Source: Microbacteriaceae bacterium (GTDB taxonomy: Bacteria; Actinomycetota; Actinomycetes; Actinomycetales; Microbacteriaceae). Taken from it: a DNA stretch of 58,406 nucleotides. How positions within the stretch are numbered: position 1 is the first letter of the stretch; each line of letters begins with the position of its first letter. Location: NCBI GenBank assembly GCA_024639845.1, contig JAHEGG010000002.1, positions 1 to 58,406 of the forward strand. The letters are read 5' to 3'. This document shows, in pieces, positions 25,662-54,600 of this stretch. Under the pieces are notes generated by a model. It was not told where the DNA came from, did not search any database, and was given only the letters and a program-made list of their open reading frames with translations. Made by a program: the position numbers and the translations under genes.

Positions 25662-25910
25662 TCAAGCTAGATCGGCTGCGATGGCCTGTTTGGCTCGATG
25701 AAGCCTTGCGACGAGTTCGGATTGCCTTATCGCCAGAGACTGCGAAACGTCAGACATTGTGCGCCCTTCGAGCAGTATGCCCCGGGCCACCGGTTGAAGT
25801 GGGTCTGCTAGGTGAGCGATTGCGCTAGCCAGTTGCTCGGCAGAGTAGCTACTCAAGTCTGGTTCTTGCTCATCGAAAGTTACGTCGAGATCGAATTCGC
25901 GATTTTGCAT
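25662..25910 (-). CDS. Small stand-alone sigma-region-4-like HTH protein
   Basis: This 82-residue protein was placed at the ATG at 25910 because GGAGG precedes it and it overlaps the upstream stop as TAATG; a longer reading into the neighbouring gene has no support. Residues 1-25 are acidic. The rest (GRTMSDVSQSLAIRQSELVARLHRAKQAIAADLA) has the helix-turn-helix spacing of sigma-70 region 4, including the RLHRAK end. No region 2 is present, so it is not a full sigma factor. It ends the catabolic operon and might regulate it. This is an inference. Confidence 0.72.
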   Translation of the reverse strand: MQNREFDLDVTFDEQEPDLSSYSAEQLASAIAHLADPLQPVARGILLEGRTMSDVSQSLAIRQSELVARLHRAKQAIAADLA

Positions 25911-27127
25911 TATGCCTCCAACTGGAACTCTTTGCGAAAACTTTGCACAACCGAACGCAAACCGATGCCGCACACTCCGACCATCTGGCCCCGCCTGTAG
26001 TAACCAAAAACGCAGTCGCCCAAAATCTGGCCCTCGATCAGCCGAATCTCGTCGGCCAAACCGAGAAGGCCGTAGGCCAAAAGGTGCATGTCGTACTGGT
26101 CGCTCCAAAACGATGGGATGGGCGCGAAAGGCTTGTTTTTTGCTGCCGCTAGTGCGACAGCATCCCCGGCCAGCGAAGCAGCTAGAACTTGTCCGACTCG
26201 TTTTGCACTGTCGGTGGGAATGTTCCAGTGCTCGACCCGGCGAGGTTCGCCATCGAAAACTGGGTTCGCAAACCGGGCAACATCGCCAACGGCAAAAACG
26301 TTTTCAACCACCGTTCCATCAACACGGATGGCCTGCAAGTCGTTGTTCGTCAAGACGCCGTTCGACAGCTCAAGATCGTTGCCGTCGAGCCATTCGACGT
26401 TAGGGTCGGAACCAATCGCCTCGATGAACACGTCGCAGTCCAGTTGTTCACCGCTGTCGAGCGTAACTCCGGTTACGCGCTCGACTCCGACCAGGTCGGC
26501 CACCGAGGATTTCATTCTGAATGCGACACCTTGCTCTTCGTGGCGCCTTTGAAGTTCTTTGGCGAGGTCGGTTCCGAGCGGTCTAACGATCGGGTGAACG
26601 CCAGGTGCGACCACGGTCACAGCGCATCCGAGTTTTCTTGCGGTCGCTGCCACTTCGCAGCCGATAAAGCCAGCCCCGAGAATCACAATTCGAGCGCCTT
26701 CGATCAACTCGGCGCGCAGTGCGATGGCATCTTCAAGAGTTCGAACCACATGTCGACCTTGCAAATCGCCATTGGGCACTTGGATGCGTTTTGGCCGCAA
26801 ACCCGTAGCGATGATCATGGCCGAGTATTCGTGAACCAGACCGGTGTCATCGGTCACGGTTGAGTTGGCGAGGTTTGCGCTCACGGCTCGGGTGCCGAGC
26901 ACCCAGTTCACATCCTCGGTTGCTGGTCGCTGTGGAAAGGCCACCGCCTCGTGGCTAACCTCGGTTGCCAGCACTTCCTTTGAAAGAGGTGGGCGGTTGT
27001 ATGGCGCGTGAGGTTCGTCGCCGATGGCAGTGACTGGCCCGGCATAGCCGAAACGGCGCAACGCCTCGGCGACACGAAGGCCACCCATCGATGCCCCTAC
27101 TATGACTACTGGCTTGCTCACAAACAC
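25910..27127 (-). CDS. FAD-dependent ferredoxin reductase
   Basis: This protein passes electrons from NAD(P)H to a ferredoxin. It has about 405 residues with two dinucleotide-binding motifs: VIVGASMGGLRV near the N terminus for FAD and VILGAGFIGCEVA near residue 150 for NAD(P)H, plus VFAVGDVARF and a C-terminal reductase domain (SFWSDQYDMHLLAYG). It resembles the reductases of P450 and Rieske systems. The start is uncertain: GTG at 27127 or 27121, both lacking a strong ribosome site. The ferredoxin gene lies 23 bp upstream, and the P450 gene is in the same regulon. Confidence 0.9.
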   Translation of the reverse strand: MFVSKPVVIVGASMGGLRVAEALRRFGYAGPVTAIGDEPHAPYNRPPLSKEVLATEVSHEAVAFPQRPATEDVNWVLGTRAVSANLANSTVTDDTGLVHEYSAMIIATGLRPKRIQVPNGDLQGRHVVRTLEDAIALRAELIEGARIVILGAGFIGCEVAATARKLGCAVTVVAPGVHPIVRPLGTDLAKELQRRHEEQGVAFRMKSSVADLVGVERVTGVTLDSGEQLDCDVFIEAIGSDPNVEWLDGNDLELSNGVLTNNDLQAIRVDGTVVENVFAVGDVARFANPVFDGEPRRVEHWNIPTDSAKRVGQVLAASLAGDAVALAAAKNKPFAPIPSFWSDQYDMHLLAYGLLGLADEIRLIEGQILGDCVFGYYRRGQMVGVCGIGLRSVVQSFRKEFQLEA

Positions 27128-27150
27128 CGCTGGTTTGGTTGCTAAGTCAG

Positions 27151-27345
27151 CTATTCGACGATGCGGATGGCTTGCATCGGGCACACGTCAATCGCGGCTT
27201 CGATGTTGGCTCGCTCGCTGTCGTCAGCCTCTGCGGTGTACTCGAGTTTGTCATCCGAGTTCAACCTAAAGATGTCAGGCGCTTCGAAAACGCATTGACC
27301 GTAGTGCTGGCACTTGGTCATGTCGACGTCAATCTTGATGGTCAT
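27151..27345 (-). CDS. [3Fe-4S] ferredoxin of P450 type
   Basis: This 64-residue protein begins MTIKIDVDMTKCQHYGQC and ends IDVCPMQAIRI. It has only three cluster cysteines (C12, C18, C55), with Tyr15 at the position where a [4Fe-4S] protein has cysteine. This points to a single [3Fe-4S] cluster, as in ferredoxins that serve actinobacterial P450s. Its ATG overlaps the preceding stop (TAATG). The likely partners are the reductase just downstream and the P450 at 32097. Confidence 0.93.
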   Translation of the reverse strand: MTIKIDVDMTKCQHYGQCVFEAPDIFRLNSDDKLEYTAEADDSERANIEAAIDVCPMQAIRIVE

Positions 27346-28220
27346 TATTTTTCCTCCACGGTTGATGGGTAAAGGTCTTTGGATGGGGTTCGTATGCCTC
27401 GGTATTCCCAGTCACCGCCGAGTGCGGTCGAGATCACTTCTTCTGACTCGGTCGGTTGCGCGCCAACATCCGTGCGAATCGGAGTTGGGCCTTCGACTAT
27501 GTGGTTGGTTAGGCGCCCGAGGCCTTCGACCTCAACTTCGACAACGTCGCCTGGCTGCACCGGGCGGCTGAACGCCGGCGTGCCAGAGAACAACATATCG
27601 CCAGGCACGAGTGTGATGGTGCGGGCGATGTCGGCCACCAGGTAGTGCATGTCCCACTCCATGTTGTCGGTATTGTCGTCTTGTTTGACCTCACCGTTCA
27701 CAAAGGTGCGGATTCGCTTATTTCGAAAATCCCAGTCGGTAACCATGCCCGGCCCGACCGGAGCGAGTGTGTCACTTCCTTTGACGCGCAACATCGAGCC
27801 GGCATCCGTGTCTCTGAAGTCGTGAAGGCCGTAGTCGTTGCCCACCGCGTAGCCGGCGATGTATTCCCCAGCTTCTTCGGGAGAGATGTTTCGGCAGGTT
27901 TTGCCGATGATGATCACTATTTCACCCTCGAAGTTGAGCCATTTGCAGCCAGCTGGGCGAACGACGGCTCCCTTGTGGGTGTTCAGCGCAGTGATCGGCT
28001 TGTGAAAGTAGGTTGGGGCAGGAGGCAACTTGGTCATGAACTCCTTAGTGCGGGAGTCGTAGTTCAGGTGCACCGCGATGATCTTGGTTGGCTCGGATGG
28101 CGCTAGGTGCACGGCATCCTCGATTGCGACTCGCCTTCCATCTGGTGCGACAAGCGTTTCGCCGTCACGCACAACCTGCACGGGGTAGCCGTCGAGCAGA
28201 ATTCTTCTAAGTTCAGTCAC
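27345..28220 (-). CDS. Fumarylacetoacetate hydrolase-family enzyme, probable HpaG/HpcE-like isomerase/decarboxylase
   Basis: This 291-residue protein begins at GTG 28220, chosen because GGAG lies 7 bp upstream and the start overlaps the end of the dioxygenase gene by 8 bp. The FAH core includes KIIAVHLNYDSR, LNFEGEIVIIIGK (metal-binding Glu residues), GYAVGNDYGLHDFRD, GPGMVT and GDMLFSGTPA. In homoprotocatechuate degradation, FAH-fold enzymes do the isomerase, decarboxylase and hydratase steps; which of these this one does cannot be told. Context with the dioxygenase and dehydrogenase supports that pathway. Confidence 0.85.
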   Translation of the reverse strand: MTELRRILLDGYPVQVVRDGETLVAPDGRRVAIEDAVHLAPSEPTKIIAVHLNYDSRTKEFMTKLPPAPTYFHKPITALNTHKGAVVRPAGCKWLNFEGEIVIIIGKTCRNISPEEAGEYIAGYAVGNDYGLHDFRDTDAGSMLRVKGSDTLAPVGPGMVTDWDFRNKRIRTFVNGEVKQDDNTDNMEWDMHYLVADIARTITLVPGDMLFSGTPAFSRPVQPGDVVEVEVEGLGRLTNHIVEGPTPIRTDVGAQPTESEEVISTALGGDWEYRGIRTPSKDLYPSTVEEK

Positions 28221-29124
28221 GAGAAAGCTCCAAATCCTTAGGTCTTGGGAATCCGCCTTCTGGGCGATCGAACCAGATGTGAACCTGGCCAGTTCCAATC
28301 GAGTTTTCATACTCGCTGTAGAGGCGACCAACCGAGGTGTTTTCTTCTTCGCCAAGCGCACCGGCCATGGCTAGGTAATGATAGAAACCGGCTTCTGGTT
28401 TGTACTTCTTAAAGGTGTCGAAGTCGTCGAGTACCGCCTTGTGGTTACCTTCGGCAAACCAAGCCATGACCTGCTTGTCATACTCGTATGCCTCCGGCGA
28501 ATAGATGTGAATCGGATCACTCGCTTCGTGCTTGCGCAAGTCGCGGAGTTTGTGGAAGGTGTGCGACAGTGCGCCAGAGCCGAGCAAAAGAACTTTGCTG
28601 TCGCTATCGCGAATCGCTTCACCTAGTGCACGACCGGCTCGCTTGAAGTCCTCGGGAGTGGCAGTTTGGCAAACCGACATCGAGACCCACTTTTTGTCAT
28701 CCAATCCGCGTCCTAGGTAGTGCCAAAGGTTCACGGTCGCATAGAAAATCGGCAGGTGTGGGTCGCTAATCGGAGTGATCCAAGTGCCATTCTTCTCGTC
28801 ATAGTTGCTGAGGCTATTTGCGAGTTCGGGGTTGCCCTTGAACGCGTAAGGAATCTGGCTCATGCCACGAGGTAGCTCCTCGCTGGTGAACAAACCGGAG
28901 CGTTCCGCGTGAGAGGTAATCACGAACTCGACGGTAGTAGCCCAGTGACTGTCGAGCACCACTACGGTGTCGAAATCCATGGTTTCAAAAATCTCTTTGC
29001 GGAGTCTTTTCAAACCTGGCACCAGGCTGATTTCCTTGCCGTCATTGAGATCCTTGCGCACGGCCTCAGGCAACATGATCGTCGGTACGTGAGCCAGAAT
29101 GGCTGCGCCTACTACTTCACCCAT
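28213..29124 (-). CDS. hpaD: Extradiol ring-cleavage dioxygenase, homoprotocatechuate 2,3-dioxygenase type (LigB superfamily)
   Basis: This 303-residue class III extradiol enzyme has conserved His in AAILAHVPTIMLPE (about residue 12) and LDSHW (about 60), followed by GSGALSHTFHKL. The opening resembles E. coli HpcB/HpaD. Expected reaction: 3,4-dihydroxyphenylacetate plus O2 to 5-carboxymethyl-2-hydroxymuconate semialdehyde, with Fe(II). Substrate is inferred from the family and from the next gene. GGAAGGA lies before the ATG. It sits 3 bp after the dehydrogenase gene. It is not the vicinal-oxygen-chelate type used for the same step in some Gram-positives. Confidence 0.88.
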   Translation of the reverse strand: MGEVVGAAILAHVPTIMLPEAVRKDLNDGKEISLVPGLKRLRKEIFETMDFDTVVVLDSHWATTVEFVITSHAERSGLFTSEELPRGMSQIPYAFKGNPELANSLSNYDEKNGTWITPISDPHLPIFYATVNLWHYLGRGLDDKKWVSMSVCQTATPEDFKRAGRALGEAIRDSDSKVLLLGSGALSHTFHKLRDLRKHEASDPIHIYSPEAYEYDKQVMAWFAEGNHKAVLDDFDTFKKYKPEAGFYHYLAMAGALGEEENTSVGRLYSEYENSIGTGQVHIWFDRPEGGFPRPKDLELSRD

Positions 29125-29127
29125 TGG

Positions 29128-30591
29128 TTATTCCTTCCATCCGTTTGGAGAAATCACGGTGTTTTTTACATCCGCATAAAAATCGAAAGACCAGTTGCCA
29201 CCCTCGCGGCCGACGCCAGATTTCTTTGAGCCGCCAAACGGTGCTCGCAGGTCGCGAACGAAGAAGCAATTCACCCAGATAGTGCCGGCGACAAGGTCTT
29301 TGGTGATGCGGTCGGCGTGAGCACGGCTGCCCGAAACCACGACCGCGGCGAGTCCGAATTCGGTGCCGTTGGCCATTTCGAGCGCTTGCTCGTCGCTGGT
29401 AAACGTTTGCATGCAAAGCACCGGTCCGAAAACCTCGGCCGTAACGATTTCGCTGCCAGGCGCAGGGTTTTTTACCAAAGTCGGCTTAAAGTACAGGCCA
29501 CCAAGTTCGGAGTTTGGTTCGCCGCCCATGACGATCGATTGGCCATCCGTCTTTGCTCGGTCAACGAAACCCTTGACTCGATCGAAGTGAGTCTGGTGAA
29601 TCTGCGGACCGATGTCGGTTTCGGGGTCGCGAGGGTCACCCTGTGTGAGTTTTGCCGCGCGATCGCGAAACTTTTCGGCAAAGACATCGGCTACCGACTC
29701 GTGAACCAGGATGCGAGTGCCACTCAGGCACACCTGGCCGGCGTTGTCATATTGCTCGACGGCCAACTCTGCGGCAAGGTCTAGGTCGGCATTATCGAAC
29801 ACCAACAACGGGCTCTTTCCGCCGAGTTCGAACGAGCAAGGGGTGAGATTGTCTGCCGCGGCGTGAGCGATGACTTTCGCGGTCGGCACCGATCCAGTGA
29901 ACGAGATTCTTGATATCCCAGGATGAGCGGTCAGTGCCGCACCCGCTTCTCGGCCGAACCCCTGAACCACGTTGAATACGCCTGCGGGGATGCCGGCTTT
30001 GACGGTCAGGTCGGCAAAGAATGAGGCACTTAGGGGAGTCCACTCTGCTGGCTTCAGCACGACAGTGTCACCGGCGGCGAGTGCTGGTCCAACTTTCCAG
30101 GTTGCCAGCATTAGCGGTGCATTCCAAGGCGTGATCAGGGCGGCAACGCCTGACGGATCCCACGAGATGTTGTTGCTGTGCCCTCTGGTCTCAAACACTT
30201 CGTGCTTAAGCTCGTTTATTGCCCATTCGGCAAAGAAACGAATGTTCATAGCGACCCGAGGCATGACTCCGCGGCGGTGTGAACGCAGAAGTGAGCCGTT
30301 ATCCATGGTTTCAAGCTGAGCAAGGTTCTCGATGTTCGCCTCGACGAGCTCTGCCAGTTTCAGCAAGAGCGCTCCGCGCTTGGCAGGGCCCATCGCCGCC
30401 CAAGCAGGGAAAGCATTTCTGGCTGCCGTGACAGCCAGGTCAACTTCAGCCGTTCCACCGCGCGATATTTCACCAAGGAATGACCCGTCGATTGGGCTGG
30501 TGTTGGTAAATGTTTCGGTCGATGCGATGCGCTCGCCGCCGATGAAATGACGGGTGTCGACTTGAATGCCGACCACTTCGACGAAGTTCAT
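29128..30591 (-). CDS. hpaE: 5-carboxymethyl-2-hydroxymuconate semialdehyde dehydrogenase
   Basis: This NAD-dependent aldehyde dehydrogenase has 487 residues, with catalytic Cys288 in NAGQVCLSG and Glu255 in FELGGKS, and PWNAPL near residue 155. It is the first gene of a minus-strand operon of six: dehydrogenase, dioxygenase, FAH enzyme, ferredoxin, reductase, HTH protein. GGGAG precedes the ATG. Oxidation of the ring-cleavage semialdehyde is inferred from the adjacent dioxygenase. The operator at 30636-30657 lies 45 bp upstream. Confidence 0.87.
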   Translation of the reverse strand: MNFVEVVGIQVDTRHFIGGERIASTETFTNTSPIDGSFLGEISRGGTAEVDLAVTAARNAFPAWAAMGPAKRGALLLKLAELVEANIENLAQLETMDNGSLLRSHRRGVMPRVAMNIRFFAEWAINELKHEVFETRGHSNNISWDPSGVAALITPWNAPLMLATWKVGPALAAGDTVVLKPAEWTPLSASFFADLTVKAGIPAGVFNVVQGFGREAGAALTAHPGISRISFTGSVPTAKVIAHAAADNLTPCSFELGGKSPLLVFDNADLDLAAELAVEQYDNAGQVCLSGTRILVHESVADVFAEKFRDRAAKLTQGDPRDPETDIGPQIHQTHFDRVKGFVDRAKTDGQSIVMGGEPNSELGGLYFKPTLVKNPAPGSEIVTAEVFGPVLCMQTFTSDEQALEMANGTEFGLAAVVVSGSRAHADRITKDLVAGTIWVNCFFVRDLRAPFGGSKKSGVGREGGNWSFDFYADVKNTVISPNGWKE

Positions 30592-30635
30592 CTGCGCTCC
30601 CTTGCCTGACGATTTGTCATCAATCGTAACTTCAA

Positions 30636-30657
30636 TTTCGTTTGGATGCTAATGATT
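30636..30657. promoter_or_regulatory. 22-bp inverted-repeat operator, copy 1
   Basis: Left arm TTTCGTT, spacer TGGATGCT, right arm AATGATT. It matches copies 2-4 in arm spacing (7-8-7). It lies between the dehydrogenase operon and the divergent peptidase C26-like gene. A half-site AATCGTAA is at 30622-30629. A MarR protein is the likely binder (inference). Confidence 0.65.
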
Positions 30658-30737
30658 TAGATTAGGGCATACTTGTCTTTCAGAACATCAAATCATCCGG
30701 TTTGGTTCTCGCTTTTTATAACGATTTGGAGTGTCGC

Positions 30738-31442
30738 ATGGATGCAACACCAAGGCCTCGAATCGCTCTACTAGGGCGGTTTGCCGAGCACACCTCGGCT
30801 ACCCGATCTGGTGCCATTGTGACGGCGCGAAAACTTGCTGAATCGGTGTGGGCCGCTGGGGGAGAACCTGTTACCTTACTTCCCACCGAAGACTTTAACT
30901 GGGATGCTCGCCTGTCCGGCTTTCAAGGAGTCCTGCTTCCAGGCGGTGGCGACATTGACCCCGCTCGATACGGGCAAAGCCCAGATACTGATGAGCTTTA
31001 TGGGGTCGACCCGCTGCAAGACGCCGCCGACCTGAGCCTGGCCAAGTGGGCAATCGGTCGATCGGTTCCGCTCCTGGCGATTTGTCGTGGATTTCAAATC
31101 GTAAACGTAGCCCTCGGGGGATCGCTGGTTCAGCACATGGCGCAAGATCACAGACACGTTGTGCATACGGTTACGTTGGAAGCGGACGTCGATCGTCTCG
31201 GACTTTCGTCGAACCGCATCGAGTCTTCTTGCTATCACCATCAAGCGTTGGATCGACTCGGAGACGGTCTTCGGGTCATTGCGACTGCGGCCGAGGGTCA
31301 CGCAGAGGCTTTTGCAATCGAAAACGCCGGCTGGGCCTATGGTTTGCAATGGCATCCCGAAGACAATGCAGCGGATGAACTCCACCAGGCCGAGATATTC
31401 GCTCGATTTGTGTCCGAATCGAAGAAGTTCGGCTCGATCTAG
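30738..31442 (+). CDS. Class I glutamine-amidotransferase-fold hydrolase, peptidase C26 (PuuD-like)
   Basis: This 234-residue protein starts at ATG 30738 with GGAG 6 bp upstream. The catalytic Cys116 is in LLAICRGFQ, and His206/Glu208 in GLQWHPE. LPGGGDIDPARYG is typical of gamma-glutamyl-gamma-aminobutyrate hydrolase, which cuts gamma-glutamyl bonds in the Puu putrescine pathway. Here it likely removes glutamate from a gamma-glutamylated intermediate formed by the GS-like ligase at 34176. The 3' end overlaps the MarR gene by 3 bp (convergent). Confidence 0.87.
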   Translation: MDATPRPRIALLGRFAEHTSATRSGAIVTARKLAESVWAAGGEPVTLLPTEDFNWDARLSGFQGVLLPGGGDIDPARYGQSPDTDELYGVDPLQDAADLSLAKWAIGRSVPLLAICRGFQIVNVALGGSLVQHMAQDHRHVVHTVTLEADVDRLGLSSNRIESSCYHHQALDRLGDGLRVIATAAEGHAEAFAIENAGWAYGLQWHPEDNAADELHQAEIFARFVSESKKFGSI

Positions 31443-31933
31443 CTTTCGAGGTGGCGCGTGATTTCGCGCAGGTGATCGGCAACTTCCTTTTTCGCGCCGG
31501 TTGTAAGTGTCTCCACAACATACTTCTCTTCACGGTTGAACTCAGGAAAAAGACGATCCATCAACTTGCGGCCTGCTGTGGTGAGCTGCACGATGACCAA
31601 ACGGCCGTCCGCCTTGCTCTTAGTGCGCTTCAACAGGCCTCGACCCTCGAGCGTTCCAAGAACGCCGGTTAGGGTCGCCTTTGAGAATCCGCCCTCGTCG
31701 GCAATCTGCCTGGTCTCGATCGGCTCCCAGATCCAGGTCACCCAAAGTACAACAAAAGCTGTCCAGGAAAGGTCTTCGCGTGCTAGAACTGTGCGTTCGA
31801 GGTGATTTCTCACCGCCGTTGCAGCGCGAAATAGATTCGAGGTCGCTGCCATAGCCGCAAAATCGATCGACTTGTTTCCGAGGCGCGCTTCAACCTGACG
31901 TTCGGTCTCGTTGAGAGTATGTACTCCGGCCAT
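31439..31933 (-). CDS. MarR-family transcriptional regulator
   Basis: This 164-residue protein was started at ATG 31933 (MAGVHTLNETE) with GAAGGGGA upstream; an extra 20 codons upstream are unlikely. The winged helix lies at about 72-135: ETRQIADEGGFSKATLTGVLGTLEGRGLLKR then the wing KSKADGRLVIVQLT. Members are dimers that release DNA on binding aromatic or related ligands. Its own promoter region holds operator copy 2 at 31988-32009, so autoregulation is likely. It is the only full regulator in the cluster and the best candidate to bind all the copies. Confidence 0.92.
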   Translation of the reverse strand: MAGVHTLNETERQVEARLGNKSIDFAAMAATSNLFRAATAVRNHLERTVLAREDLSWTAFVVLWVTWIWEPIETRQIADEGGFSKATLTGVLGTLEGRGLLKRTKSKADGRLVIVQLTTAGRKLMDRLFPEFNREEKYVVETLTTGAKKEVADHLREITRHLES

Positions 31934-31987
31934 GGTGTCCCCTTCGGAAGTCGGCGTTGCGTTGAACCGACTAAACCATAGTTTCCC

Positions 31988-32009
31988 ATTCATTTAGTCC
32001 CGAATGAAT
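31988..32009. promoter_or_regulatory. 22-bp inverted-repeat operator, copy 2
   Basis: A perfect repeat: ATTCATT, spacer TAGTCCCG, AATGAAT. It lies between the MarR gene and the divergent P450 gene. Spacer TAGTCCC is shared with copy 4. A second short element, GACTAAAC, is at 31969-31976. Confidence 0.75.
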
Positions 32010-32096
32010 AACATTTCACAGATTTGCGAATACCAATTTGCAAAATCCCACTAATCTAAAAATGATTTGTGTCCAAACAATCTCTTAGGAGTTGAA

Positions 32097-33344
32097 GTGA
32101 ACTCACTGTCGAGCATCACGCTGGCAAACCTTGATCTTTTTGAAAATGGTGCACCCTGGGAGGTTTTCGAGCGGCTCAGAAAACAGAGCCCGATCCATTG
32201 GAACGAAGAGGAAAGCCCGAACTCAGGCTTCTACTCAATCGCGAGATACCACGACATCGTCAAAATCCTTCGAGACCCAGACACATTCACCTCTGAGCGT
32301 TTCACAAACCTAGAAGAAGTCGATGCCGAGCAGGAGGAAGCTCGACGATCGCTTCTCGAAACCGACGGCACCCGTCACCGTGCGTTGAGGCGCCTCCTGC
32401 AGGGTGAGTTCACGCCCCAGGCAGTGGCACGCTACGAAACATTTCTTCGCGGCCTCACCGCTACGACACTAGACAAGGCATTCGCCAAAGGTTCGTTTGA
32501 TTTCGTTGAAGAAGTTGCTGCTGACTTCCCCATAAACGTTTTGGTGCGATTGCTGGATGTGCCACCAGAGCACGCCGGTCAACTCATTGACTGGGGAAAC
32601 CGAATGGTTGGTTTCGATGATCCCGAGCACGCGGACGTGTTGATCAGCGATCCGGCGAGCGAGCAGTATCGCCTTGTTCCATTCAAATCGCCAGCAGCTC
32701 TCGAGGTGTTCGCCTATGGTGATGATCTTGCAAGGCAGCGCAAAGGAAAAGACGGCACCGACTTAATCTCTAAGCTCATCAACACCACTCCGTCTGATGG
32801 CATCCCGCTGAGTGAGCGAGACTTTCACACCAACTTCCTGCTACTGGTAGTAGCTGGCAATGAGACCACTCGGCACACAATCAGTCACACCATGAGAAAC
32901 CTCATACTGAACCCTGAGCAGCTGACCTACTTGCAAGAGAATCCCGACAAAATCGAGTGGGCGGTTGAAGAGTTCTTGAGATATGCGAGCCCCGTCTATC
33001 ACTTCAGGCGCACCGCGACCCGCGATGTCGAATTCAACGGTGTTCAAATCAAACAAGGCCAAAAAGTCGTTCCTTGGTTCGCCTCGGGAAACCGTGACGA
33101 CGCGATTTTCGAGAATCCAAACGCCATGGATGTCACACGCAACCCAAACGAACACATGACCTTCGGGCGAGGTGGGCCACACATGTGTCTCGGCAACGCA
33201 CTCGCGCGCATCGAACTGCGCGTCATGTTTGAGGAGTTAATCCAAAGAGTCGACAAGGTCGAGATAACTGGTGAGGTTGATTTCTTGCGGAGCAACTTCG
33301 TACACGGAATCAAGCGATTCCCAGTGAAGGTCACAACCCGCTAA
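32097..33344 (+). CDS. Cytochrome P450
   Basis: This heme monooxygenase has 415 residues. GTG at 32097 was chosen because AGGAG is 5 bp upstream; a TTG at 32067 lies closer to the promoter region. Motifs are I-helix AGNETT (253-258), ExxR (E292-R295) and heme-ligand loop FGRGGPHMCLG (Cys364). The heme loop and AGNETTRH resemble CYP125/CYP142-like soluble actinobacterial enzymes. Electrons should come from the 3Fe-4S ferredoxin (27151) and reductase (25910), which share its operator type. The substrate is unknown; hydroxylation of an amine or gamma-glutamylated aromatic ring is inferred from context. Confidence 0.93.
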   Translation: MNSLSSITLANLDLFENGAPWEVFERLRKQSPIHWNEEESPNSGFYSIARYHDIVKILRDPDTFTSERFTNLEEVDAEQEEARRSLLETDGTRHRALRRLLQGEFTPQAVARYETFLRGLTATTLDKAFAKGSFDFVEEVAADFPINVLVRLLDVPPEHAGQLIDWGNRMVGFDDPEHADVLISDPASEQYRLVPFKSPAALEVFAYGDDLARQRKGKDGTDLISKLINTTPSDGIPLSERDFHTNFLLLVVAGNETTRHTISHTMRNLILNPEQLTYLQENPDKIEWAVEEFLRYASPVYHFRRTATRDVEFNGVQIKQGQKVVPWFASGNRDDAIFENPNAMDVTRNPNEHMTFGRGGPHMCLGNALARIELRVMFEELIQRVDKVEITGEVDFLRSNFVHGIKRFPVKVTTR

Positions 33345-34051
33345 AGCTTGAGCCCTGAGATCGAATCGATAAACGCATCGATTAGGGCATAGGTGCGGGC
33401 AACGGAGGCAGGCTCTTCGGCGATGGTCATTTGCATCATCACGACCGGGTCTTGCCCATCCTGTTGAACCTTTTTGTCGCCACCCCAGTCGAGCCAACCT
33501 TTGAGCCCACTTGAGACCAGTTCGGGGTGAAACTGCACCGCGAGGCAGTGTTTAAAGATGAACGCCTGCGAAGCAGAAGGGTTGCGGGCGATTTCCACCG
33601 CTTCGCTCGGCACCGTCCAGCGGTCGTAGTGAAACTGGAACCACGGTCCGGTCGATAGGAGTTCGGGGCGGTCAGACATGATTGCCGCCCATCCGATTTC
33701 GCCTCTTGGGGCAGGTGCAACCGAACCGCCTAAGGCGCGGGCGAGCAGCTGGCCACCGAAACAAATCCCGAGTATGGGTTTTCCGGCAATCGCTGCCGCG
33801 CGTATCCACTCGATCTCTGGAATCAGCCAGTTGCCGATGCATGCGTCATCCCAAGCGCCCCAGGGTGCACCGAGCGGCACAATCACGTCGTAGTCGTTCG
33901 CGTTGGGAAACTCAAATGGAACATTCGGGTGCTCAAAGCTCGACTCTGGAACGACGAGTATTTCTTCGGTTTCGAAACCTCGCTCTCGAAAACGCTCACC
34001 GACTGGTCCGGTCGGGCTGACATGGTCGTGCTGAACGAACAGAACTTTCAT
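33341..34051 (-). CDS. Class I glutamine-amidotransferase-like protein
   Basis: This 236-residue protein begins at ATG 34051 (MKVLFVQHDH). The triad is present: Cys97 in GICFGGQLLA, His175 and Glu177 in QFHPELV. It resembles stand-alone GMP-synthase-like amidotransferase proteins. Similar genes next to a GS-like ligase act on gamma-glutamyl amides in aniline breakdown (AtdA2/TdnT). It is the second such hydrolase fold in the cluster. It converges with the P450 gene (4-bp overlap) and is divergent from the GS-like gene, with operator copy 3 between them. Confidence 0.87.
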   Translation of the reverse strand: MKVLFVQHDHVSPTGPVGERFRERGFETEEILVVPESSFEHPNVPFEFPNANDYDVIVPLGAPWGAWDDACIGNWLIPEIEWIRAAAIAGKPILGICFGGQLLARALGGSVAPAPRGEIGWAAIMSDRPELLSTGPWFQFHYDRWTVPSEAVEIARNPSASQAFIFKHCLAVQFHPELVSSGLKGWLDWGGDKKVQQDGQDPVVMMQMTIAEEPASVARTYALIDAFIDSISGLKL

Positions 34052-34117
34052 TGGCAACCTAACTTGTGGGTAACATTTTCAGAACTGCCGAGGCGAGCGC
34101 CTCGCTTAGCACTATTA

Positions 34118-34139
34118 TTTCGTTTGAGCCCTAACGATT
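34118..34139. promoter_or_regulatory. 22-bp inverted-repeat operator, copy 3
   Basis: Left arm TTTCGTT, spacer TGAGCCCT, right arm AACGATT. It lies between the divergent amidotransferase and GS-like genes. The right arm is identical to that of copy 4. Confidence 0.7.
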
Positions 34140-34175
34140 GTTAAGGTTCGGCCAACTTGTTACAAAGGAGTTGCA

Positions 34176-35525
34176 ATGGCCACCGATCTCATGGCCCTTC
34201 GTGCCGATTTGCAGAGTCGCGACATCGACGTTCTCAGGCTCATTTACCCAGACGTTTTAGGTCTGACCAGATCCAAGGACCTGCTAGTTAGCCAGCTGGA
34301 CAAAGGCGCACACAACGGACCAGCTTTTTGCCAGGGCGTTTGGGTGACCACGACCCGCGGTGGAGTTCTCGACGCAAACAATATCGCCAGCGACGGCCTT
34401 CAAGACCTTGTGAGCAAGCTCGACCCAAACACCATCACCGAGATGCCCTGGGAACCTGGCGTTGCTTTTGCGATCGCCGATGCGTTCAACCCAGACGGTT
34501 CGGTCAACTTGATGTCGCCACGTTCGGTGCTCAAGCAGATCATCGCCGAATACAACGCTCTAGGTCTGCAGCCGGTTGTCGGTCCCGAGCTCGAGTTTTA
34601 CATCGCCAAACGCACCAAGAAGGGCGGCTTCAAGCGGGCTCACGAAAAAACCGGAATGGTTTACACGACGGGCGTGCAGACCGACCCCGATGGCCACTTC
34701 TTGACCTTGCTTCGCACCCTCGACCAGATGGACATCGGGGTGTTCGCGGGCAACGCTGAGTTCAGCCCATCCCAGTATGAAATCAACCTGTATCACTCGG
34801 AAGCCCTCGACGCCGCCGACCGAACCTTCAAGTTCAAGACGGCAATCAAAGACGTTGTCGCAACCCTCGGCCAACACGCAACCTTCTTGGGCAAGCCTTG
34901 GAGCGACGAGGGCGGCAGCGGTTTCCACCTGCACTTCTCGGTCACCGACATGGCCGGCAAGAACCTGATGCACGACGGTGGCGAAGGGCTTTCGGAGGTT
35001 GCCAAGCGGATGATCGCTGGCGTCACAGCGAACGCTCACGCCCTTGCGGCCTTCACCAACCCAACTATCAACGCCTACAAGCGTCTCGGGCCAGACACTC
35101 TCGCTCCTTATCGAGCCAACTGGGGCTTCGACAATCGCAGCACGATGCTGCGAGTGCCACCGGAGCGCGGTTCGGGAACTCGACTCGAGGTTCGCATTGG
35201 TGACGGCGCGGCCAACCCGTATCTTTTGATTGCCGGCATCTTGGCTGCAGCCTTGGATGGCATCAAGCGCGAGCTCGAGTGCCCACCACCTGCCGAGGGA
35301 ATGGCCTACGACAACGAGAGTGCTGAGGTGTTGCCAATGTCGCTCACCGCTGCGCTCGACGCGCTCGAAGCAAACAAGAACCTGAGTCAGTATGTGTCAC
35401 AGGAACTGATCAATGTTTTCTTGGTTCTGAAGCGCGACGAAGTTGAACGTTATGAGGCGGAGGTTACCGAGCCGACTCGCGACGTCACCGATTGGGAGAT
35501 TGCCGAATATTTCGAGGCCTACTAA
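34176..35525 (+). CDS. Glutamine synthetase-like gamma-glutamyl amide ligase
   Basis: This 449-residue protein has the GS fold: beta-grasp N domain (to about 105) and catalytic domain with GPELEFYIA, NAEFSPSQYEIN, GSGFHLHFS, and YRANWGFDNRSTMLRVP. It is shorter than housekeeping GlnA I (about 470) and lacks the NLYDLPPE adenylylation site. Such proteins (PuuA, IpuC, AtdA1) join glutamate to amines using ATP. That the amine here is the catabolic substrate is inferred from the hydrolases, permease and operator sites. AAAGGAG stands before the ATG. Confidence 0.9.
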   Translation: MATDLMALRADLQSRDIDVLRLIYPDVLGLTRSKDLLVSQLDKGAHNGPAFCQGVWVTTTRGGVLDANNIASDGLQDLVSKLDPNTITEMPWEPGVAFAIADAFNPDGSVNLMSPRSVLKQIIAEYNALGLQPVVGPELEFYIAKRTKKGGFKRAHEKTGMVYTTGVQTDPDGHFLTLLRTLDQMDIGVFAGNAEFSPSQYEINLYHSEALDAADRTFKFKTAIKDVVATLGQHATFLGKPWSDEGGSGFHLHFSVTDMAGKNLMHDGGEGLSEVAKRMIAGVTANAHALAAFTNPTINAYKRLGPDTLAPYRANWGFDNRSTMLRVPPERGSGTRLEVRIGDGAANPYLLIAGILAAALDGIKRELECPPPAEGMAYDNESAEVLPMSLTAALDALEANKNLSQYVSQELINVFLVLKRDEVERYEAEVTEPTRDVTDWEIAEYFEAY

Positions 35526-35556
35526 GCCGAACCTCGATCAAAGGTCGCGGCAAGAG

Positions 35557-36366
35557 TCAGTTGTTCTGTGAACGATCTTCGATGAGCGTGCCACCATTGA
35601 AGGTCACCCCGACCTCGCGATAGTAACCGCCGAGAATCTCCGTCACAGGCAAAATCGAGTTCAGTTCATCCCACTGGGAATCGCCGAGAGTGAGTTCGGC
35701 TGTGCCGTACCAGGGGTCACCCAGGTCGGCATCGACGCCACCCATCGAAATCAACTGGTCCATCGAGTTTCCTGCACCAGGAACAATCGAAGGCATCCAA
35801 CGCGAGTGGAGCATCTTGTGTCCATTAACAAATCCATTCGACTCGGATGGCCCAACCAACGTCACAACGGCCGATGCGAGTCTGTGGTCGTAGGCGGCTA
35901 GGGTTGCGCCTAGCTTGGCTCCGGCTTCGAGTTTCGGTGTAGCCTTTCCGTGGTTGAAGAGTCGCGTGACGTGCACCGAGCCCAACTTCTTCGGATACCC
36001 CTGGAACCAACCACGAGCGATGGCGAAGTCCTTGGTCACCCAGATTGCGACGCAGCGTGAATAAGTCACGCCATACTTTTTGCACCGAACCACTACAAAC
36101 GCTTCGAGATATTGCGAGCGAATCGGGTCGAGAAGTTCGTCACCGCCTTCGCTGCAAGACTGCCAGTCGGCCCAGATGATCGCTACAGCGCCGGGTTGCT
36201 CGTCGGCCAGTTCGATGTCTTCCGGAAGAATCGCCCTTACGTTTGCGGGGTCAGTTAAGTACTCGACTGTCAAAAGCGTGCCCGAATAATACCAAGGCAT
36301 GTTTGGCACCAAAGAAGATTTGCCGCTCGGGGTTAGTGGCGCGATGAATCCGTTGAGTTCGCTCAT
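35557..36366 (-). CDS. Acetoacetate decarboxylase-like protein
   Basis: This 269-residue protein starts at ATG 36366 (MSELNGFIAP); a longer frame to 36489 has an unsupported N-terminal stretch. The ADC-family fold is shown by MPWYYSG, ILPEDIELAD, and GYPKKLGSV, in which Lys126-Lys127 match the Schiff-base Lys pair of acetoacetate decarboxylase. Relatives act on other beta-keto or hydroxy acids. Position in the cluster suggests a decarboxylation step in the pathway; the substrate is unknown. The upstream region holds the 6-3-6 repeat AGCGAA/TTCGCT at 36379-36393 and half-site AACGATT at 36424-36430. Confidence 0.85.
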   Translation of the reverse strand: MSELNGFIAPLTPSGKSSLVPNMPWYYSGTLLTVEYLTDPANVRAILPEDIELADEQPGAVAIIWADWQSCSEGGDELLDPIRSQYLEAFVVVRCKKYGVTYSRCVAIWVTKDFAIARGWFQGYPKKLGSVHVTRLFNHGKATPKLEAGAKLGATLAAYDHRLASAVVTLVGPSESNGFVNGHKMLHSRWMPSIVPGAGNSMDQLISMGGVDADLGDPWYGTAELTLGDSQWDELNSILPVTEILGGYYREVGVTFNGGTLIEDRSQNN

Positions 36367-36498
36367 GTCCAAAAGCCTAGCGAATCGTTCGCTTCCAAAC
36401 AAAGCCGCCAAAATGGGCTTTATAACGATTCGACAAAGCATCTTCGTTAGTGCCCGTATGAACTTGACCGAATCCACGGACTCCGCCAATCTTGGGTT

Positions 36499-36520
36499 AA
36501 TCGTTTAGTCCCTAACGATT
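36499..36520. promoter_or_regulatory. 22-bp inverted-repeat operator, copy 4 (best copy)
   Basis: A perfect repeat: AATCGTT, spacer TAGTCCCT, AACGATT. It lies 23 bp before the permease ATG, in the divergent gap with the ADC-like gene. GAGGAG for the permease follows at 36532-36537, so the operator overlaps the likely transcript start. Confidence 0.78.
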
Positions 36521-36543
36521 ATTAACTCAATGAGGAGATCCTT

Positions 36544-38022
36544 ATGGCTGAGCAGAGCTCGGGCACATCTTTACGATCCGGACGCCTTGGCGTTTGGGGC
36601 ATCGTTTTCTTCGTGGTGGCTGCGGCCGCCCCACTGGTCGGCATGACCGGCGCAGTTCCGGTCGCCATCCTTGCCGGTAACGGAGCCGCGGCTTCTGGTA
36701 CCTACCTGCTGGTCGGTTTAACTCTTTTGCTATTTAGCGTTGGTTTCACGGCCATGACCTCAAAGGTGACCAATGCCGGTGCTTTCTTTGCCTACGTCGG
36801 GCGAGGCATGGGTCCAAACATGGGTGTCGCCTCAGCTTTCACTTCCATCGTGGGCTACGTCACTATTCAGCTGGCCATCTACGGATTTTTCGGTGGCCTC
36901 ATGGCTGGCCAAATGGCCTCGCTCGGCATCGACATGGCTTGGTGGATCTGGGCTCTATTGGCCTGGGCTATTGTCACGGCCCTCTCACTTTTGAGCGTGG
37001 ATGTCGGCGCAAAGGTACTAGGAACGCTGATGATTTTGGAGCTCGCGTCTTTGCTCATCACGGGTGTAGCGATTCTCGTCAACCACTCTGCGCAGATGGA
37101 TTTCAACGCTGCTTTCAACCCCGCAAACATTTTTGCCGGTGGACTCGAGGGCGGCGCGGGAATCGCCATCGCCTTTGCCCTGGCATCGTTCATCGGATTC
37201 GAAGCAACGGCCATTTATGGAGAAGAGTCGAAAGATCCAAAGCGTGCCGTTCCGCGTGCCACCTACCTTGCCATCGGAATCATTACCGCTTTGTTTGCAA
37301 TCGTTTCATTCGCGATTGTGACTGGTCTAGGTGCTTCGACGGTAGTTGACCAGGTTGCAACGATTTCCGAAGGTGGCGCTAATCCCGCTGCTGTGCTGTT
37401 CTCGCTTGCCGAAAGCAACGTTGGTGTTTGGATGGTAGACGTCATGAGCTGGCTTGTTGTTTCTAGCCTCTTCGCGGGTCTGCTCGCATTCCAAAACGCA
37501 AATGCGCGTTACTTCTTCGCTCTGGGCCGCGGTGGCGTATTGCCAAAGACCTTTGGCAAGACAAACGCCTCCGGTGCTCCTCAAAGCGGTGTAATTCTTA
37601 CCTCGGTGCTTGCAGCCCTTGTGATTGTAGGATTCGCAGCCGCAAATCTCGACCCAATCCTCAACCTGTTCTTCTGGATGAGCGCTATCACCGCGGTTGC
37701 AATCATGGTCGTGGAGATTCTGGTTAGCGTCTCGGTGGTGCTCTACTTCAGAAAGAACGGTGGAGCGAACGTTTGGAAATCAACCGTTGCCCCACTGGCA
37801 TCAGCGGTTCTTCTAGCAGGAGGCCTTTACCTTCTGATGTCGCGCTTCAACCTGCTTTCGGGTCTGGCTTCAACGCCGGAAGGCGCTGGAGTCTCTTGGG
37901 ATCTTTCGCCGCTCGGCTGGGTTCTAGTTCTGAGTCCTTTCATTGCGCTGGTCGTGGGTTATCTCGTGGCGGTCGTGCAGAAGAGCTCAAACAACGAGCT
38001 TGTGAAAGACATCGTCTCCTAA
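36544..38022 (+). CDS. APC-family amino acid/amine permease
   Basis: This 492-residue integral membrane protein has about 12 hydrophobic helices. The first helix contains GIVFFVVAAAAPLVGMTGAVP, and a later block is GFEATAIYGEESKDPKRAVPRATYLA, a typical APC loop. Family members exchange or import amino acids or amines with protons. With operator copy 4 at its promoter it is the probable uptake system of the catabolic cluster. The downstream terminator at 38033 ends the transcript. Confidence 0.93.
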   Translation: MAEQSSGTSLRSGRLGVWGIVFFVVAAAAPLVGMTGAVPVAILAGNGAAASGTYLLVGLTLLLFSVGFTAMTSKVTNAGAFFAYVGRGMGPNMGVASAFTSIVGYVTIQLAIYGFFGGLMAGQMASLGIDMAWWIWALLAWAIVTALSLLSVDVGAKVLGTLMILELASLLITGVAILVNHSAQMDFNAAFNPANIFAGGLEGGAGIAIAFALASFIGFEATAIYGEESKDPKRAVPRATYLAIGIITALFAIVSFAIVTGLGASTVVDQVATISEGGANPAAVLFSLAESNVGVWMVDVMSWLVVSSLFAGLLAFQNANARYFFALGRGGVLPKTFGKTNASGAPQSGVILTSVLAALVIVGFAAANLDPILNLFFWMSAITAVAIMVVEILVSVSVVLYFRKNGGANVWKSTVAPLASAVLLAGGLYLLMSRFNLLSGLASTPEGAGVSWDLSPLGWVLVLSPFIALVVGYLVAVVQKSSNNELVKDIVS

Positions 38023-38032
38023 CCGATCTGAG

Positions 38033-38065
38033 AAAAATGCCCGGCCACTGTGGTCGGGCATTTTT
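38033..38065. terminator. Rho-independent terminator (symmetrical)
   Basis: AAAAATGCCCG and CGGGCATTTTT flank GCCACTGTGGT, which forms the top of the stem (with CCAC-tgt-GG). A T-rich tract follows. It stops the permease transcript and could work in both directions. Confidence 0.88.
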
Positions 38066-38089
38066 CTTTTCGTTGCAACTCGGGACCCG

Positions 38090-38111
38090 AATCGTTTGGC
38101 TACGAATGGTA
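38090..38111. promoter_or_regulatory. Weak fifth copy of the 22-bp operator
   Basis: AATCGTTT at 38090-38097 is followed by GGCTACG and AATGGTA. Left arm identical to copy 4; right arm degenerate (AATGGTA for AACGATT). It lies 20 bp before the aspartase ATG. The match is partial, so binding is uncertain. Confidence 0.4.
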
Positions 38112-38130
38112 TTCGTGCCAAACTAAACAC

Positions 38131-53970: not shown

Positions 53971-54600
53971 ATGGTTGGATGCCGAAGATTGCTTGGTGCT
54001 TCGACGATCGCGATTAGCGCAATGATGCTCACAACTGGATGCGCGTGGAGTGCCCCAGCCCCGACAGCTTCGCCTTCCGCATCACCCACCTCATCCGTGG
54101 CCGCTATGACGCCAAAGGAAGCCAAGGCTGCCTACAAAGAGATCGCAAAAGCCAGTTGCAACGCGGCGCAAAGCCTTGGAGTAGTCGAAGCGGGAGACAC
54201 CTGGCGCATTGTTTCCGTGAACAAAGACCAAAACTACAAGGATTTTTCTGCCGCCTATTTTGAAGAGCCAGACAACTACACGCTGATCTGGGAGCTCGAC
54301 TCATTGCACTCCTGCGCCGATTGGTATTCGTTCAGCATGGCCGAGGAGGCAGGTCAAGAAACTTCGATCGAGGTCACGTTTGATCCAACAGATTCGACCT
54401 TCACGACCTTTGAAGATTTTGGTGACCTAGGAACGTCGAACTACAAGTACTCGGTACGTGATGGAAAGTTGTTCACAGCCACAAACCTTGATCCAGAGCA
54501 CGAAAATACAGTCACCATCGAATACGGAAACATCTCGGAATACGACCGCAACATTCTGGTCACGGCCGTGGATCGTTACCTCGCAACTCTCAACAACTAA
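53971..54600 (+). CDS. Lipoprotein of unknown function
   Basis: I do not recognise this 209-residue protein. The signal peptide ends at the lipobox LTTGC, followed by a Pro/Ser/Thr/Ala linker. The mature domain has YKEIAKASCNAAQ, ADWYSFSMAEEAGQETSIEV and an acidic middle. The ATG at 53971 gives the signal peptide; AGGAG lies 12 bp upstream. The following DUF998-like gene starts 19 bp later, so they are probably co-transcribed. Confidence 0.8.
   Translation: MVGCRRLLGASTIAISAMMLTTGCAWSAPAPTASPSASPTSSVAAMTPKEAKAAYKEIAKASCNAAQSLGVVEAGDTWRIVSVNKDQNYKDFSAAYFEEPDNYTLIWELDSLHSCADWYSFSMAEEAGQETSIEVTFDPTDSTFTTFEDFGDLGTSNYKYSVRDGKLFTATNLDPEHENTVTIEYGNISEYDRNILVTAVDRYLATLNN

Follow-up and report, generated by a model that had tools for sequence, protein, structure and literature searches.

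What would a ligase of the glutamine synthetase (GS) family contribute to a gene cluster that also encodes a cytochrome P450 and a ring-cleavage dioxygenase? The question is raised by positions 25662-38022 of a DNA stretch of 58,406 nucleotides from a Microbacteriaceae bacterium (GenBank assembly GCA_024639845.1, contig JAHEGG010000002.1), hereafter called the window. The source assembly comprises 1.40 Mb in 20 contigs and is 93.8 % complete; its genus appears to belong to a freshwater lineage of the family. Very probably the cluster encodes a co-regulated, widely conserved route for an aromatic amine by gamma-glutamylation. We see about an even chance that the glutamyl tag is retained and that the route handles an arylethylamine taken up or made by the cell itself, tyramine being the likeliest. 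In its most extended form, to which we give slightly less than an even chance, the proposal is a route widespread in actinobacteria in which the glutamate handle would be kept through hydroxylation, extradiol cleavage and aldol cleavage. It would then feed the gamma-glutamyl-gamma-aminobutyrate (GABA) route of the Puu type, an enzyme of the acetoacetate decarboxylase (ADC) superfamily replacing both HpaH and HpaI.

The GS-like ligase, the two class-I glutamine amidotransferase (GATase) hydrolases, the P450 with its ferredoxin and reductase, the permease and the meta-cleavage genes that a preliminary description of the locus had named were all found at 25662-38022. An ADC-family protein and a MarR regulator are parts beyond those named in its reasoning. 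From the small protein to the aldehyde dehydrogenase (ALDH) the genes form a run on the minus strand, after which the strands alternate. In order, with profile or structure matches in bits, the features are:

25662..25910, minus strand: small protein of 82 amino acids at the end of the FdR operon; longer open reading frame without a Pfam match, homologues in several cluster loci
25910..27127, minus strand: FAD-dependent ferredoxin reductase (FdR); Pyr_redox_2, 190 bits
27151..27345, minus strand: 3Fe-4S ferredoxin of 64 amino acids; CxxHxxC...CP pattern
27345..~28310, minus strand: single-domain FAH-family decarboxylase/isomerase, like the HpaG C-terminal part; TIGR02303, 194 bits (cut-off 276); PDB 1gtt, 206 bits; start uncertain
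28213..29124, minus strand: class III (LigB) extradiol dioxygenase, HpaD-like; TIGR02298, 128 bits (cut-off 316); PF02900, 87 bits; PDB 8iq8, 80 bits
29128..30591, minus strand: ALDH, HpaE-like; TIGR02299, 511 bits (cut-off 638)
30638..30655, no strand: operator 1, in the ALDH/GATb gap; exact 18-mer match
30702..31442, plus strand: GATb, Peptidase_C26 or PuuD-like gamma-glutamyl-amide hydrolase; PF07722, 144 bits; best NCBIfam model PuuD, 74 bits (cut-off 266)
31439..31933, minus strand: MarR-family regulator, HpaR-like; TIGR02337 (HpaR), 50 bits (cut-off 121); PF01047, 45 bits
31990..32007, no strand: operator 2, in the MarR/P450 gap; exact 18-mer match
32067..33344, plus strand: cytochrome P450; nearest solved sequences CYP125MRCA (357 bits), then CYP125/268/124
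33341..34057, minus strand: GATa, class-I GATase-like amide hydrolase; PF00117, 48 bits
34120..34137, no strand: operator 3, in the GATa/GS gap; exact 18-mer match
34176..35525, plus strand: predicted GS-like gamma-glutamyl-amine ligase; PF00120, 302 bits
35557..36489, minus strand: ADC-superfamily protein, MppR-like; TIGR04460 (MppR), 168 bits (cut-off 380); PDB mppR 4jm3, 154 bits
36501..36518, no strand: operator 4, in the ADC/APC gap; exact 18-mer match
36544..38022, plus strand: APC-family amine/amino-acid permease; PF00324, 88 bits
38092..38109, no strand: weak operator-like site with 1 mismatch, preceding the probable start (~38131) of an aspartate ammonia-lyase/fumarase-family open reading frame, 38050-39531

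The MarR gene probably starts at 31933 rather than at the open reading frame start 31993, which falls inside operator 2, and the true starts of the P450 and ADC-family genes are probably ~32097 and 36366. The ferredoxin is taken by us to be of the 3Fe-4S type from its cysteine pattern.

The GS-like ligase was aligned with the two other GS proteins of the genome, with IpuC (about 32 % identity) and with NpaA1. Residue counts here and below refer to orthologues taken from a 65-locus census at minimum identities of 35-55 %, a filter that removed 2 of 31 GATb, 2 of 39 GATa, 2 of 52 FAH-family and 1 of 59 GS sequences. The ammonia-site glutamate (E327-equivalent) is replaced by Leu309, and leucine stands there in 56 of 58 orthologues (one Met, one gap); NpaA1 carries the same replacement in the alignment. 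The D50-type ammonia loop, FDGSS/FDGSA, is kept in the two other GS proteins, whereas the cluster ligase has a longer loop, as does NpaA1. The glutamate and metal residues of the E129/E131 type are retained as E138 and E140 in 57 of 58 orthologues, the remaining one having a gap. Among plasmid-borne relatives, those closest to the ligase belong to Streptomycetaceae and share 46-48 % identity with it. Loss of the ammonia-site residues separates amine ligases from ammonia ligases, according to parts of two papers (PMC6529630, PMC11335346). The protein thus matches the residue criteria of gamma-glutamyl-organoamide synthetases (GoaS/GlnA4 type), and an amine is its predicted substrate; an ammonia-assimilating GS was rejected in view of the lost ammonia-site residues.

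The four divergent gaps of the cluster each contain one copy of an imperfect palindrome with the arms TCRTTY...RAAYGA. Exact matches to the 18-mer TCRTTYRNNNNCKAAYGA lie at 30638, 31990, 34120 and 36501, and matches with one mismatch at 36385, 36444, 38092 and 15434, the copies at 36385 and 36444 lying upstream of the probable ADC start. With at most one mismatch, 8 matches are thus found in the window; shuffled sequences gave a mean of 0.66 (maximum 4), and none of 100 shuffles reached 8. The pattern was derived from the four sites themselves, and independent support therefore has to come from the loci of relatives. A matrix trained on the four window sites was run on 8 loci of the same genus. 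In L062, L064, L067, L070, L073 and L074 the best matrix sites occupied each of the four corresponding gaps, and in L078 three of them, whereas in L080 the gap sites scored 13.4-16.7 bits, little or no better than the top-scoring Markov controls, which reached 16.2 bits. Across the window's entire genome, 26 strand-wise pattern matches were found versus 12 for a backward control, so many of the matches outside the cluster are to be expected by chance. The shared operators invoked in the preliminary description were thus recovered, one per divergent gap, in the window and in most of the same-genus loci scanned, and the cluster is probably a catabolic regulon repressed by its MarR protein. Taken with the residues that the ligase has lost, these operators support the earlier suggestion that an amine may be processed by P450-based gamma-glutamylation.

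Of the 150 genomes of a family sample, 17 besides the window's own carry a P450 orthologue with 66-77 % identity (one partial), and 26 give any P450 match at E 1e-40. Of 60 genomes of the same genus, 27 contain the GS; many are incomplete metagenome-assembled genomes (MAGs), and the trait therefore looks patchy. The module was mapped in 39 loci chosen for holding the P450 or the GS, several of them cut by contig ends; 37 are from the same family, and of the other two one lies on a plasmid of Streptomyces canus and one on a plasmid of Embleya. When titled species genomes were scanned with the P450 alignment, at least 581 relatives were obtained, of which the best 80 loci, thus picked by their P450, were analysed; some are the same contigs as the loci mapped earlier, and many are cut by contig ends. 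A six-gene core (P450, GS, HpaD, FAH, ALDH and ADC) lies within a stretch of no more than ~21 kb in 57 of these 80 loci; of the 54 that are 19 kb or longer, 45 have it. Recurrence in the 39 mapped loci and in 57 of the 80 of the second scan shows that the gene set is not a product of chance. Its members stay together in Microbacteriaceae and likewise in Streptomyces, Actinomadura, Nocardioides and Mycolicibacterium.

This range bears on the view that a polyamine/GABA module (GS, GATases, PuuC, permease) simply lies beside an unrelated aromatic module (P450, HpaD). PuuA, PuuC and PuuD are polyamine enzymes, and an ABC transporter that is Pot-like (polyamine-type by eye) adjoins gabT in the genus. 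Yet the set stays together from Microbacteriaceae to Mycolicibacterium and one type of operator occupies all four gaps. Moreover, no PuuB-like oxidase was seen among the scanned representatives of recurrent extra families, those found in at least 4 of the 65 loci, although no search was aimed at PuuB. We regard separate neighbours as highly improbable.

The cluster lies on plasmid records in S. canus (L034) and Embleya (L035), with a transposase and integrases alongside in S. canus; it can therefore probably move.

Putative catalytic residues are invariant among the aligned orthologues of six further cluster proteins. The HpaD-like protein has a LigB domain and a putative His-His-Glu metal site, H12/H60/E244, in 46 of 46 orthologues; the presumed metal ligands follow the alignment with 8iq8. 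E255 and C288 of the HpaE-like ALDH were found in 55 of 55 orthologues, E128, E130 and D159 of the FAH-family protein in 50 of 50 aligned, and the triads C128/H218/E220 of GATb and C99/H177/E179 of GATa in 29 of 29 and 37 of 37 aligned sequences. In the ADC-family protein K167 and R159 (numbering of the open reading frame) occur in 51 of 51; by alignment R159 is the arginine equivalent to MppR 148, and K167 is the putative Schiff-base lysine. MppR is both the best NCBIfam model and the best-scoring solved relative of this protein, in which the position of MppR Glu283 is Val. It is proposed to be a hydratase/retro-aldolase. In 34 of the 65 loci where both can be seen, its gene directly adjoins a ring-cleavage gene on the same strand; in the window the two are 5 kb apart and not neighbours. 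In Sulfolobus solfataricus grown on phenol two ADC-family proteins were strongly induced, and such proteins have been proposed as the aldolase of archaeal phenol meta-cleavage with MppR as the model (PMC7820114, in part).

From these parts we infer the following order of steps. The amine would be taken up by the APC permease and converted to its gamma-glutamyl amide by the GS-like ligase; the P450, with the ferredoxin and the FAD reductase, would then add the second ring hydroxyl, giving gamma-glutamyl-dopamine. The HpaD-like dioxygenase would open the ring, the HpaE-like ALDH would oxidise the resulting semialdehyde, and the FAH-family enzyme would carry out decarboxylation and isomerisation. 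Hydration and retro-aldol cleavage by the MppR-like ADC-family enzyme would release pyruvate and gamma-glutamyl-4-aminobutyraldehyde, from which an aldehyde dehydrogenase (PuuC-like where present) would make gamma-glutamyl-GABA, and the PuuD-like hydrolase GATb would free GABA and glutamate. GABA would then be degraded by GABA transaminase and succinate-semialdehyde dehydrogenase (SSADH). The ring chemistry was derived by hand from the known homoprotocatechuate steps; on this derivation gamma-glutamyl-dopamine would yield pyruvate and gamma-glutamyl-4-aminobutyraldehyde, which is the substrate of PuuC.

The 4-hydroxyphenylacetate 3-hydroxylase HpaB was found in none of 14 cluster-bearing genomes (controls, 4 of 14 positive), and some relatives encode a PuuC-like ALDH, a GABA transaminase or aromatic-type decarboxylases near the cluster; for these reasons a retained tag ending in GABA is favoured over hydroxyphenylacetate. 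Of the substrate suggested at first, phenylethylamine-like or hydroxyphenylacetate-yielding, the second half has become less likely in view of HpaB and of the Puu and GABA genes of relatives. PuuC-like ALDHs with at least 50 % identity to that of S. canus occur in 28 of the 80 loci, and many Streptomyces loci end at this gene. A PuuC-like gene and GATb are both present in 11 loci and are same-strand neighbours in 9 of these. The three PuuC-like ALDHs that were classed (L034, L035, L046) had PuuC as top NCBIfam model (568, 547 and 516 bits, cut-off 850); the same-genus locus L073 has instead an aminobutyraldehyde dehydrogenase over its cut-off (673/615). The commonest family not already assigned in the 65-locus census is class-III aminotransferase (9 loci), and GabT was recognised over its cut-off in 5 of the 65 loci (L046, L119, L130, L136, L151). 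An SSADH-like gene at 42348-43817 of the window (TIGR01780, 548 bits, cut-off 646), which several loci of the genus also have downstream of their cluster, could complete GABA breakdown.

On contig C18 of the window's genome an operator-like site at 54413 precedes gabT, and such a site was seen in some relatives. As gabT was present in 55 of 60 same-genus genomes it was unusable for a phylogenetic-profile test. With at most 2 mismatches, a limit set after the list had been seen, the palindrome precedes gabT in 6 of 23 cluster-bearing genomes and in none of 29 genomes of the genus without the GS (one-sided Fisher test, p 0.005), kinship among the genomes being uncorrected. When the genome in which the site was first noticed, the window's own, is set aside, the counts are 5 of 22 versus 0 of 29 (p 0.011). 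The comparison covers the 52 of 60 genomes with a usable gabT start (4 of 27 with the GS and 4 of 33 without it were left out); absence of the GS is judged from incomplete MAGs, and one cluster-free upstream stretch has 195 bases. A second operator-like site on C18, at 61450, lies between a PotD-like binding protein gene and an alanine dehydrogenase gene. No claim is made for it: among the loci of 20 relatives scanned, some not reaching that gap, a comparable site (2 mismatches) stands before ald only in L238.

The choice of the mismatch limit, the uncorrected kinship and the incomplete MAGs in the gabT comparison weigh against a retained tag that ends in GABA, and so do the following observations. 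The gabT operator is lacking in 17 of the 23 cluster-bearing genomes, and gabT itself is core in the genus. Four of the nine class-III aminotransferases are not GabT, and Actinomadura accounts for four of the five GabT loci. The window's cluster has neither a PuuC-like ALDH nor a decarboxylase, which are known from some relatives only. GATa, present in 32 of the 80 loci, has no firm step in the proposed route. The scores for the HpaD, HpaE, FAH, PuuD, PuuC, MppR, HpaR and tyrosine decarboxylase models are all under cut-off, among them the HpaD, HpaE and HpaG equivalogs (128/316, 511/638 and 194/276 bits). The solved sequences nearest to the P450, of CYP125/124 type, we take to be lipid or steroid oxidisers and not known ring hydroxylases. 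The decarboxylases found in relatives have as best NCBIfam models mostly diaminobutyrate or aspartate, also archaeal tyrosine decarboxylase, all far under cut-off. An HpcH/HpaI-family protein is over cut-off in 10 of the 14 cluster genomes (no match to this type of aldolase in the window's genome, matches under cut-off only in G203, G067 and G131), and 13 of the 14 have a further FAH-family protein, a possible hydratase, only the cluster's own being present in G059. There is no single genome that lacks both candidates, and this evidence against the canonical 4-hydroxyphenylacetate pathway is therefore supportive and not decisive. A search for DmpG-type aldolases gave no matches in cluster genomes and none in controls either, and so carries no weight. 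Flavin amine-oxidase-family proteins, finally, are encoded in all 14 cluster genomes; the family also spans carotenoid and porphyrin enzymes and is too broad for a decision.

This last observation would also suit early removal of the tag, in which the P450 would hydroxylate the amide, a GATase would free the catecholamine, and deamination to 3,4-dihydroxyphenylacetate would lead through the homoprotocatechuate pathway to pyruvate and succinate semialdehyde. HpaD, HpaE and HpaR are the best models of three cluster proteins and the HpaG C-terminal model is second best for a fourth; the cluster has two hydrolases and the SSADH-like gene 42348-43817 beyond it, and the scheme mirrors the isopropylamine route of strain TC1. 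The canonical pathway, however, requires a hydroxylase, CHM isomerase, OPET decarboxylase, HHDD isomerase, a hydratase, an aldolase and SSADH, as set out in part of PMC12718150, and no cluster gene was recognised as coding for CHM isomerase, OHED hydratase or HpaI (for CHM isomerase only the cluster genes were covered). A copper amine oxidase was not found in 13 of the 14 cluster genomes (1 of 14, as in the controls), and the PuuC and GABA transaminase of relatives are left unexplained. Early removal of the tag is unlikely, in our judgement.

The P450 itself admits a different chemistry. It could hydroxylate the carbon beside the nitrogen, so that the carbinolamide would decay to glutamine and an aryl-acetaldehyde and the GATases, which are related to glutamine amidotransferases, would be glutaminases. 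Such N-dealkylation is chemically usual for P450s, but with HpaB not found no known enzyme would be left for the second ring hydroxyl, and PuuC and GabT would again be unexplained; we consider it very unlikely. The electron chain of the P450 varies between loci. An FdR homologue is present in 50 of the 80, mostly adjoining a ferredoxin, and homologues of both proteins are missing from the Nocardioides, Pimelobacter and mycobacterial loci L147, L148 and L153-L156. A reductase family of the Fer2/FAD type (PaaE/MmoC-like; only the L153 member was scanned) occurs near the P450 in L147, L153, L156 and L159, where it appears to stand in for the ferredoxin and FAD reductase or to accompany them. The chain therefore seems exchangeable while the core is kept.

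A possible source of a home-made amine lies among the genes of the cluster in relatives. The PF00282 decarboxylase of L057 (203 bits) has relatives in 13 of the 65 census loci, 7 at more than 70 % identity (including itself), 1 at 48 % and 5 at no more than 35 %, one of the latter being truncated where its locus ends. Among solved sequences, DOPA and aromatic-amino-acid decarboxylases belong to its best matches, but the top one is a decarboxylase of desferrioxamine biosynthesis. The gene stands between the P450 and GATa in nine loci (L054-L057, L060, L093, L094, L098, L102), L094 and L102 of which look like near-copies; in L134 the relative directly after the P450 has tyrosine decarboxylase as its best model (134 bits, cut-off 299). 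The window's genome has 3 PF00282 matches, all outside the cluster. These decarboxylase relatives (13 of 65 loci) and the C4 end at GABA (5 of 65) fit an amine with a two-carbon side chain and speak against the same enzymes working on some other substrate, an aniline-, benzylamine-, phenylethylamine- or methoxytyramine-like amine, where the P450 could O-demethylate or act twice. The sequence cannot tell the substrate, and two P450s of the same family are present in L121, L127 and L137 and a second P450 with a ferredoxin in the S. canus locus; a different substrate nevertheless appears distinctly unlikely. The second copies in L121, L127 and L137 are 45-51 % identical to the window's P450, and such pairs could carry out two successive hydroxylations with phenylethylamine as the substrate.

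Among described systems, the ipu route of Paenarthrobacter aurescens TC1 and Pseudomonas KIE171 shares several parts with the cluster: its GS-like ligase, two GATases, ALDHs and a P450 that is served by a ferredoxin and a reductase are likewise encoded in a single cluster. In TC1 isopropylamine is handled by IpuC and a multicomponent P450, and a glutamine amidotransferase was postulated for hydrolysis (PMC6776027, in part). By analogy the cluster's P450 would act on a gamma-glutamyl amide. The ipu substrate, unlike the one proposed here, is aliphatic, and no ring-cleavage, FAH or ADC genes are annotated in the 21-kb stretch of pTC1 examined. Since P450 oxidation of a gamma-glutamyl amide is thus on record for TC1 in that part of the source, the earlier statement that no described pathway has this set was too strong in its broad form. 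In our literature search, with subscription journals mostly outside its coverage, no paper was recognised that joins a GS-like ligase, a P450, an extradiol dioxygenase and Puu-type genes.

The likeness to aniline breakdown drawn in the preliminary description holds for the ligase, the hydrolase and ring cleavage, the Rieske dioxygenase being replaced by a P450. As in the aniline and 1-naphthylamine systems (AtdA1/NpaA1), an aromatic amine would be glutamylated by a GS-like ligase with a GATase adjoining, oxygenation following and a ring-cleavage gene nearby. There the ligases feed Rieske dioxygenases (PMC11335346, in part), giving a free catechol or diol, whereas the cluster has a P450 and the tag would be kept in the favoured reading. 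The cluster oxygenase is not of the Rieske type (the genome was not searched for Rieske enzymes). A pure aniline analogue was rejected, because a P450 serves as the oxygenase and because neither the ALDH/FAH/ADC set nor the GABA links would be accounted for. With the homoprotocatechuate (hpa/hpc) pathway the cluster shares HpaD-, HpaE-, HpaG- and HpaR-like proteins, scoring below cut-off; it differs from that pathway in that HpaB was not found, HpaF, HpaH and HpaI were not recognised in the cluster, and an ADC-family protein is present instead. The Puu putrescine pathway offers the PuuA-like ligase logic and the PuuD-like hydrolase, with PuuC-like ALDH and GABA transaminase in some relatives, but its aldehyde derives from putrescine and not from ring cleavage, and no PuuB was seen. 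P450 systems for piperidine and morpholine (pip/mor) likewise combine a P450, a ferredoxin and a reductase. In G. molinativorax a glutamine synthetase gene is overexpressed, and the GS genes 438/3052 are numbered next to the P450 genes 437/3051 (parts of PMC9477822). These clusters differ in acting on cyclic secondary amines, and in the same parts of that source no ring-cleavage genes are mentioned and the GS is read as nitrogen assimilation.

If the proposal is right, a function would be assigned to a conserved set that bears only generic names in the annotated S. canus plasmid locus and is found in many Actinomycetota (Streptomyces, Actinomadura, Nocardioides, Mycolicibacterium and freshwater Microbacteriaceae). 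The set would explain a possible use of tyramine-like amines without copper amine oxidase or HpaB, would join glutamyl-tagged amine catabolism with meta-cleavage, and would give the ADC superfamily a catabolic role. The predicted intermediates are gamma-glutamyl-tyramine, gamma-glutamyl-dopamine and gamma-glutamyl-GABA. About 12 kb of a 1.4-Mb genome is devoted to the cluster, which gives it ecological weight, and common bacteria would, if this were proven, have a new way to recycle aromatic amines into ordinary food molecules.

Some minor features accompany the cluster. Weak operator-like sites at or near the AspA start, as at 38092 of the window, are also present in L064, L067 and L074, and the aspartate ammonia-lyase/fumarase-family gene 38050-39531 may belong to the regulon. 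The gene for the 82-amino-acid protein (25662-25910) adjoins the permease gene in L051, L052, L080, L097 and L099; the protein gives the impression, and only that, of a stand-alone sigma-70 region-4 helix-turn-helix. An F420-dependent LLM-class oxidoreductase (TIGR03619, at 5683-6606 of L034) is encoded in 15 of the 65 census loci, from Streptomyces, Actinomadura, Pimelobacter and mycobacteria.

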